From positions 1 through 62,568 of the forward strand of contig JAQGIC010000046.1 in the NCBI GenBank assembly GCA_028288725.1: a stretch of DNA of 62,568 nucleotides, read 5' to 3'. Shown piece by piece: positions 23,286 through 24,664 of the stretch; position 1 is the stretch's first letter, and every line of letters starts with the position of its first letter. This DNA is from Rhodospirillales bacterium. Its GTDB lineage: Bacteria > Pseudomonadota > Alphaproteobacteria > ATCC43930 > CGMCC-115725. The notes beneath the pieces were generated by a model that made no database searches, was not told where the DNA came from, and saw only the letters and a program-made list of their open reading frames with translations. Made by a program: the position numbers and the translations under genes.

Positions 23286-24269
23286 TTACGGGAACAGGCT
23301 GTCGATCGAGGATTGATCGAGCGCCGGGCCGGCGTCGGCCGGTTCGGCCTTTTTCTCGACTTTCTTTTCGACCTTCTTCTCGATTGGCTTTTCGACCGGT
23401 TTCGGCTTTTCGACCGGAGCCGCCACGACTGGCGGCGGGGGCGGAGGCGGTGGTGGGGGCGGCGGTGGCGGCGGTGACGGCGCTTCGGCTTCGGCAGCCG
23501 CAGCGGCCCAGTCGTCTTCGTTCGCGGGCGTGTTGAAGCCGCCCGCCAGCAGGTTGTCGACCTCGCTCTGATCGACACCGCCCGACAACGACGGACCATG
23601 CATCAGATGGGCGTCCGGCCGGTCGTCGCGCTCGGCGGTCGTCACCTCGTCGCCCTTGACGCCCTCGAGGCCCCAGATGCGGATCATCGCATCGACGCGT
23701 TCCTCGAGATAGCGGAGCGTCGAGACGACCTTGGAAATGCGCTGGCCGGTGATGTCCTGGAAACCGCAGGCCATCAGAATATTGGTCGCTTCCATGTCGA
23801 TCTGGTCGGCCTCGTCGGTCAGGCCCTCGGCCTTCTTGACCCGCTGGGCCAGTTCCATGATGCGCTCGGCACCATTCAGAATGTCCGACGTCGCCCGCTC
23901 GGTCGCATGGACGATCGCGTCCAGTTCCTCGGTCGCGAGATTGATGCGGCGCGTGCTGCCGGGACCGTTTTCGTCCGGGGGCTTCATCGCCGAGATTTCG
24001 GTCTTGGCGCGGCGGATGGACGAGGCCATCTCGATCAGTTCGCGCCGCAGCACGTCCAAATGGACGTCGCCGGCCGATTTGACCTGGGACTGTTCGATCC
24101 ATTGCCGGATCGACCGCAGGCCGGCGTGATATTCATCGACCGCCAGGACGGCCCCGCGCTTGTCCCGCATGCGCAGGAACGCGCGCCCGGCCTCCGTAGA
24201 CAAGAGGGCGTCCTCGATCGCAATATACTGCTCGCCGGCCAGGTCCTTCGGGACCTTCAGACCTGCCAT
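23286..24269 (-). CDS. cheZ: Chemotaxis protein CheZ (CheY-P phosphatase)
   Basis: A 327-residue CheZ, longer than the E. coli protein (about 214). The phosphatase helix is ATNILMACGFQDITGQRISK, with Asp172 and Gln176 matching the catalytic pair of E. coli CheZ (Asp143, Gln147). After the core comes VDQSEVDNLLA (232-242), then 15 prolines (266-280), a lysine/glutamate-rich stretch (KKVEKKVEKK) and the C-terminal LDQSSIDSLFP (317-327), the position where CheZ binds CheY. It lies 23 bases after cheY. The ATG at 24269 is preceded by GGGGGTAGG. A longer frame reaching 24497 overlaps cheY and is rejected. Confidence 0.9.
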   Translation of the reverse strand: MAGLKVPKDLAGEQYIAIEDALLSTEAGRAFLRMRDKRGAVLAVDEYHAGLRSIRQWIEQSQVKSAGDVHLDVLRRELIEMASSIRRAKTEISAMKPPDENGPGSTRRINLATEELDAIVHATERATSDILNGAERIMELAQRVKKAEGLTDEADQIDMEATNILMACGFQDITGQRISKVVSTLRYLEERVDAMIRIWGLEGVKGDEVTTAERDDRPDAHLMHGPSLSGGVDQSEVDNLLAGGFNTPANEDDWAAAAAEAEAPSPPPPPPPPPPPPPPPVVAAPVEKPKPVEKPIEKKVEKKVEKKAEPADAGPALDQSSIDSLFP

Positions 24270-24292: not shown

Positions 24293-24664
24293 TCACAGCA
24301 CCGACGCGATCTTGGTCTTCAACGTTTCGGCGTTGAAGGGCTTTACAATGTAATTGCTGACGCCGGCCGCCTTGGCGGCAATGACGTTCTCGGTCTTGGA
24401 CTCGGCGGTGACCATGATGAAGGGCGTCGCCTTCAGTGCCGCGTCGGCGCGCACGAGCTTCAACAGCTCGAGCCCCGACATCGGCTCCATGTTCCAATCC
24501 GAGATGACCAAACCGAACTTGTGGCCCCGCATCTTGTCATAGGCCGAAGCGCCGTTGTCGGCCTCTTCGATATTGGTAAACCCGATCTGATTGAGCAGGT
24601 TTTTGATGATGCGGCGCATGGTGTTGTAGTCGTCGACGACCAACACCGGCACACTCGTATCCAT
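24293..24664 (-). CDS. cheY: Chemotaxis response regulator CheY
   Basis: A 123-residue single receiver domain. The acidic pair is Asp11-Asp12 (LVVDDYNTMRR), the phosphorylated residue Asp56 (VISDWNMEPMSG), the threonine in FIMVTAES and the lysine in YIVKPF. It is the diffusible signal from CheA to the flagellar motor. ATG at 24664 is chosen because AGAGGAC lies seven bases upstream; the longer frame to 24718 has no such site. The pair cheY-cheZ is an operon. Confidence 0.93.
   Translation of the reverse strand: MDTSVPVLVVDDYNTMRRIIKNLLNQIGFTNIEEADNGASAYDKMRGHKFGLVISDWNMEPMSGLELLKLVRADAALKATPFIMVTAESKTENVIAAKAAGVSNYIVKPFNAETLKTKIASVL

Follow-up and report, generated by a model that had tools for sequence, protein, structure and literature searches.

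A CheZ-family protein with an additional CheY-binding-like peptide at its C-terminus and its counterparts among the Alphaproteobacteria

Introduction

CheZ is the textbook terminator of chemotaxis signals in Escherichia coli, and its mechanism is based on one docking peptide per subunit. With regard to this peptide, the cheZ gene on a stretch of 62,568 nucleotides from a Rhodospirillales bacterium (contig JAQGIC010000046.1; the whole stretch is termed the window in the following) raises a question: the encoded protein carries two peptides that resemble the CheY-binding peptide, and it has to be asked which of them is the canonical one and what role the other might play. According to the reading that we prefer and to which we assign a probability of roughly 0.6, both peptides would dock CheY-P and raise its capture, so that this CheZ would act as a tethered phosphatase in which every subunit carries two docking peptides. 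In titles and the beginnings of abstracts of the open-access literature no report of a CheZ with two CheY-binding peptides was found, which is weak evidence of absence, and the accessible portion of PMC2829493 counts CheZ genes without tail architecture.

The cheZ gene, its product and the neighboring cheY gene

The following elements were recognized, all on the minus strand of the window:

23286..24269, minus: cheZ, 327 amino acids plus stop codon; open reading frame with a Pfam PF04344 match and a profile match to 1kmi_Z
24293..24664, minus: cheY, directly upstream of cheZ; Response_reg match
24156..24242, minus: N-terminal extension with GRxFLR signature, residues 10-38; predicted helical; alignment A1
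23742..23762, minus: catalytic motif FQDITGQ, residues 170-176; aligns with FQDLTGQ of E. coli CheZ
23592..23606, minus: LMHGP, an element of the LLNGP type preceding the inner peptide, residues 222-226
23544..23576, minus: inner peptide VDQSEVDNLLA, residues 232-242; by homology the canonical docking peptide of CheZ
23430..23474, minus: run of 15 prolines, residues 266-280
23322..23429, minus: linker rich in Pro, Lys and Glu, predicted disordered, residues 281-316
23289..23321, minus: terminal peptide LDQSSIDSLFP, additional docking-like peptide, residues 317-327; one residue after LF

The product is a CheZ-family protein and presumably a CheY-P phosphatase of the multi-peptide kind. A CheZ is called multi-peptide here when its core is followed by at least two copies of the motif Q..[IVLM][DN].[LIMV][LFIM], with a single residue between the final copy and the stop; the window protein fits this definition. 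A first-pass annotation of this DNA had given the two peptides, the position of the inner one at residues 232-242 and the 15 intervening prolines correctly, and its notion of one CheY-binding-like peptide near the core and one far from it is borne out by their location.

With 49.1 bits at a cut-off of 30.7 the protein passes the Pfam CheZ model (PF04344), the match comprising profile positions 108-199 of 203 and reaching as far as the inner peptide, to residue 242 of the full-length protein. For the NCBIfam equivalog NF008368 (protein phosphatase CheZ, PRK11166), which matches residues 151-242, a score of 34.1 bits was obtained vs. a cut-off of 257; the window protein is a relative and does not belong to this narrow model. 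The residues F, Q, D, T, G and Q of the catalytic motif are invariant across the alignments A1, containing 20 CheZ from the family of the window's source organism (22 loci were detected, of which L021 and L022 are not included), and A3, containing 44 sequences. In the excerpt available from PMC7750401, the phosphatase motif is given as DXXXQ. Because of the CheZ profile match and the catalytic motif, we regard the window protein as a variant of CheZ and not as a new kind of protein.

The product of the upstream cheY gene is identical to the CheY chain 2fka_A in 67 of 120 aligned residues and is likely the partner of the window CheZ. Adjacency of cheY as a mark of two-peptide CheZ was rejected, as there was no separation: among loci L001-L131, a CheY relative is located in the upstream 1 kb of 28 out of 62 two-copy loci (two of them without room to tell) vs. 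24 out of 66 one-copy loci.

The inner peptide and the canonical CheZ tail

When a profile of the 20 family sequences in A1 was compared with PDB sequences, the CheZ in 1kmi was the single match at E ≤ 0.001. In the resulting alignment, which covered the core and the tail, not the N-terminal part, the inner peptide follows the LLNGP element and coincides with SQDQVDDLLDSL, the C-terminal stretch of CheZ from E. coli (chain Z of 1kmi). The two proteins have in common the FQD.TGQ motif, the LLNGP element and a Q..VD.LL peptide at the place of the inner peptide; however, E. coli CheZ ends after this docking peptide, while the window CheZ adds 85 residues with the proline run and the second peptide. 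The short C-terminal helix of CheZ is named as the main CheYp binding site in the available part of PMC1447658, and by sequence and position it is the inner peptide that corresponds to such a helix, as it falls on the E. coli helix and is itself predicted to be helical (residues 234-242). The second CheZ of the same genome (L001), encoded on contig C37 about 2 kb from FliM, has one peptide and ends at the inner-peptide position with SQADIDAILAGLF.

Based on the profile alignment with E. coli CheZ, the end of the Pfam match and the alignment with L001, the inner peptide is assigned to the canonical CheZ tail position and the terminal peptide is taken as the addition. The same three observations led us to reject the inner peptide as the addition and reverse the original assignment, in which the terminal peptide had stood for the canonical tail of CheZ and the inner one had counted as an extra copy.

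Occurrence of multi-peptide CheZ

CheZ was found in 13 of the 39 genomes of the window's family. Among the 20 proteins in alignment A1, 13 contain the second peptide and seven end with one peptide. In L015 from the same genus both peptides are letter for letter those of the window although 4 of 26 codons differ, and a proline run is absent; L014 and L019 have both peptides in common with 10 of 23 codons being different. Since peptides were chosen as identical in both proteins, the lack of non-synonymous changes is given by construction, and the comparison is no selection test; the only thing it demonstrates is codon drift with unchanged peptides. In the inner peptide, the window and L014 differ (VDQSEVDNLLA vs. 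IDQSAVDSLFD).

A neutral Pfam search detected CheZ in 151 of 387 alphaproteobacterial genomes. The class sample studied further comprised 142 frames, i.e., L103-L131, 113 further places among the matches listed, which stop short of the weakest ones, and four other CheZ; rows constituting N-terminal halves of included proteins were left out, and L112, L115, L183 and L192 had no frame with the core pattern. Past the core, one motif copy is present in 107, two in 29, three in one and four in three of these 142 proteins while two have none, such that at least two copies occur in 33 of 142 alphaproteobacterial CheZ among the matches listed. Among the tails that continue beyond the first copy for nine or more residues, 33 of 36 contain a further copy vs. 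0.03 of 36 expected upon shuffling each tail, a contrast that does not translate into an exact probability as the sequences are related. In all 33 the last copy lies exactly one residue before the stop, a position not imposed by the search. The long tails without a second strict motif are those of L212, of L235 with its degenerate terminal motif, and of L252. Looking for both peptides in the CheZ proteins of relatives, the check proposed along with the first-pass annotation, returned both, as in L015, and the occurrence of two CheY-binding-like peptides in one CheZ lies well beyond the shuffled expectation. The best-scoring 30 CheZ from other genomes of the same phylum, presumably outside the Alphaproteobacteria and taken as E. 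coli-like, all have one copy and end with DDLL..LGF.

A further 80 named loci were collected with a two-peptide alignment as query and are biased toward two-peptide tails; under the strict rule they comprise 45 with at least two copies (including Azospirillum, Nitrospirillum, Niveispirillum, Skermanella, Roseospira, Rhodobiaceae and Kordiimonadaceae), five with one copy, 28 with other tails and two cut by contig ends. In L035 and L044, which belong to the other tails, a second copy is followed by four residues, and several related tails outside the class sample finish in degenerate or different motifs. At least 13 of 36 sampled genomes with multi-peptide CheZ also carry a longer-ended one-peptide CheZ. 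By conservation both peptides look real, and the extra copy probably matters because many relatives keep two or more copies despite ever-changing linkers.

With regard to tail ends of another kind, CheZ from L079, L088, L089, L093, L094 and L102, several of them from Hyphomicrobiales, terminates with DKMALFT, KRAALFG, EKVALTS, EKSALFS and the like, not with Q..ID.LF.

The linker and the proline run

The distance between the first and the last copy ranges from 1 to 154 residues with a median of 62. Proline runs of at least six residues are present in 25 of the 77 distinct multi-peptide linkers and runs of at least ten in 12, while 38 do not contain a run of even three prolines; in 13 linkers Asp and Glu together account for at least one quarter of the residues. 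The polyproline rod that had been described between the peptides does exist in the window protein. Its status as a defining part was rejected on these counts, and it is not conserved. Since runs of six or more prolines are present in only 25 of 77 linkers, the rod appears to be optional and one of several ways of filling the space.

Features of the terminal peptide

Although the motif allows L, F, I and M at its last position, the terminal copy ends with Phe in 77 of 77 distinct multi-peptide tails, while Phe, Leu and Met occur at this position in the inner copy. In this set, which was limited to tails with no more than three residues behind the final copy, exactly one residue follows the terminal copy in 76 tails. 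For 600 random pairs of the 77, pairwise identity amounted to 0.52 for the inner 9-mer, 0.71 for the terminal 9-mer and at most 0.30 for the linker, and between the inner and terminal 9-mers of one protein to 0.58; these values are partly built in, since five positions out of nine are set or restricted by the motif rule, and they carry no weight in our interpretation.

Properties of this kind can also be accommodated if the terminal peptide is a localization or partner-binding tail, directed to a cell pole, a receptor or a motor protein, with no more than a resemblance to the CheY-binding motif. That the chain ends a single residue past the motif (33 of 33 long tails with a further copy in the class sample and 76 of 77 distinct tails) suggests recognition of the chain end, and the invariant Phe opposite a mixed inner position indicates that the terminal peptide may have another job. 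In addition, the N-terminal GRxFL extension, for which helices 12-23 and 26-63 are predicted in the window CheZ and which is possibly linked to polar localization, co-occurs with multi-peptide tails (8 of 33 vs. 0 of 104 single-peptide CheZ in the class sample). The CheZ of Azorhizobium caulinodans is also alphaproteobacterial and has a long N-terminal helical region, and its C-terminus matters for polar localization (PMC8563088, accessible part); however, according to the portions available of PMC7750401 and PMC8563088, this protein of 236 residues has one C-terminal helix (225-236) vs. two peptides in the window CheZ. The result from A. caulinodans does not speak for the second peptide because there is one C-terminal helix only. 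The positions that recur in the terminal peptides (Q, I/V, D, L, F/L) are precisely those common to FliM and the known CheZ docking peptide. We consider a localization tail unlikely and favor docking of CheY-P by both peptides.

Phylogeny of the core domain

A tree of 137 core domains, calculated with the tails left out, placed all 34 multi-peptide CheZ in one clade of 59 rows together with the window gene, while L001 with its one copy is located outside. The support of this clade is 88 (SH-aLRT) and not starred, and the tree stems from a short search on 141 columns. Only L001-L020 and the rows from L103 onward entered it; 13 rows with long branches or many gaps were left out, as were tails neither clearly one- nor multi-peptide (36 other and two cut tails of 231), and duplicate removal also eliminated class-sample rows with a core equal to that of a named locus (e.g., L188, L229, L234). 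Six changes of state are needed on this tree, at least four of which are forced by starred branches. A FastTree of all 231 rows, with many long branches, requires at least ten changes between one and many peptides.

Within the clade, 25 members have a single peptide, and two peptides are therefore not essential. A single residue follows the motif in all 59 clade members (25 single, 34 multi) vs. none of the 78 outside, whose single tails extend two to six residues past the motif. This clean split holds for the placed rows only, because six one-peptide proteins among the 13 dropped rows (L123, L179, L219, L241, L254, L265) also end one residue past the motif and would blur it.

Given one-peptide members in the clade and linkers that are of low complexity and widely variable, the second peptide could have arisen neutrally when tails duplicated and linkers slipped, with no function under selection. 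On the other hand, of 36 long tails 33 retain a second motif whose distance from the stop does not change, even with linkers of greatly different length and composition, and the terminal motif ends with Phe in every one of the 77 tails, so that such an origin appears very improbable to us. The evidence is better accounted for when both peptides serve in CheY-P docking.

Predicted structure and proposed mechanism

The AlphaFold single-chain model of the window CheZ was built on the 44 sequences of A3 and has a pTM of 0.35. CheZ dimers are characterized by a four-helix bundle built from helical hairpins; for the window CheZ, long core helices are predicted at residues 105-146 and 151-199, with block pLDDT values mostly above 80, while from residue 201 onward confidence is mostly low. 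Both peptides are predicted to form short helices, the terminal one at residues 319-323; block means of pLDDT are 40-59 over residues 281-320 and 80 for residues 321-327. A Foldseek comparison of the model with the PDB yielded no match at E ≤ 0.001 and mostly generic helical proteins.

The peptide of FliM binds CheY. FliM of this genome exhibits the same Q..[IV]D.L[LF] core as the CheZ peptides, VLNQNEIDSLLG, and Q[DN]EID[SN]LLGF is present in 25 of 25 FliM frames readable by pattern, out of 30 FliM places. FliM and CheZ peptides thus have the Q..[IV]D.LL core in common; however, FliM is a motor switch protein, not a phosphatase, and its peptide ends with LL in all 25 frames read. The common motif suggests that the peptides compete for the same face of CheY-P. 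With regard to its position, the FliM peptide (L132, 1201-2307; L296-L319) lies inside a Gly/Asp-rich N-terminal region, around residue 50 here, and not at the very start.

In the mechanism that we propose, the inner peptide, 33 residues past the helical core, would act as the classical docking helix, and the terminal peptide, 118 residues past the core on a linker predicted to be disordered, would offer the same face of CheY-P another place to dock. Because the motif is common to both, they should compete with each other for a single site per CheY-P molecule, and the gain would lie in valency: with two docking peptides per subunit, a presumed dimer with two active sites would have four, more CheY-P would be held near the active sites and recapture would be quicker. 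CheY-P binding by each peptide, stoichiometry and kinetic effect are what we infer here. Docking peptides of this kind have affinities of tens of micromolar. Treating the tail as a Gaussian chain with an assumed persistence length, we estimated the effective concentration at 30 Å from the end of the core; it comes to 4.5 mM for the inner peptide and, for the terminal one, to 1.1 mM, so that even the distant peptide could still supply the active site.

Assemblies of CheZ bridged by CheY-P would also be possible. In the CheZ2-CheYp oligomer model of Lipkow (PMC1447658, as far as accessible), CheYp likewise bridges several CheZ dimers via flexible tethers; that model has one C-terminal peptide and the catalytic site, while two peptides per chain would allow more bridges. 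Multi-peptide CheZ may help to explain short-lived CheY-P in alphaproteobacteria with several CheY proteins.

Alternatively, the two peptides could divide labor between different response regulators, the inner one binding, for example, the neighboring CheY and the terminal one a CheY-like protein from another chemotaxis cluster. A candidate for the latter exists in the genome, as an open reading frame of 123 amino acids on contig C8 (in L134), followed directly by a CheB gene, encodes a CheY-like receiver 32% identical to the window CheY, and the inner and terminal peptides differ in consensus. This receiver is distant, though (E 2.2e-13 vs. 6e-78 for the window CheY itself), and the core motif is common to both peptides; we regard division of labor as improbable and retain docking of the same CheY-P by both peptides. 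As contigs C8, C49 and C51 of the genome (G000) contain three matches of the CheB type of methylesterase, several chemosensory clusters are probably encoded.

CheZ proteins with three and four peptides

Three copies are present in L247 and four in L173, L211 and L257. Within each four-copy protein, copies 2 and 3 represent a tandem duplication, with 48, 47 and 53 of 54 nucleotides being identical in L173, L211 and L257, respectively, as expected if each copy were a usable unit. Taken further, the subfamily could constitute a multivalent CheY-P sponge with two to four interchangeable peptides on fast-evolving disordered linkers that forms polar assemblies through cross-linking by CheY-P and in which the number and spacing of peptides, altered by tandem duplication, tune the steepness of switch-off; this is a tentative proposal that we hold to be possible yet doubtful. 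A natural series from one up to four peptides, joined by linkers of 1-154 residues, would allow direct tests of tethering, valency and oligomerization of CheZ.

Finally, L022, one of the two family loci omitted from A1, encodes a distant CheZ-like protein in genome G016, which carries QKEVDALM near its end and is located on a very long branch.
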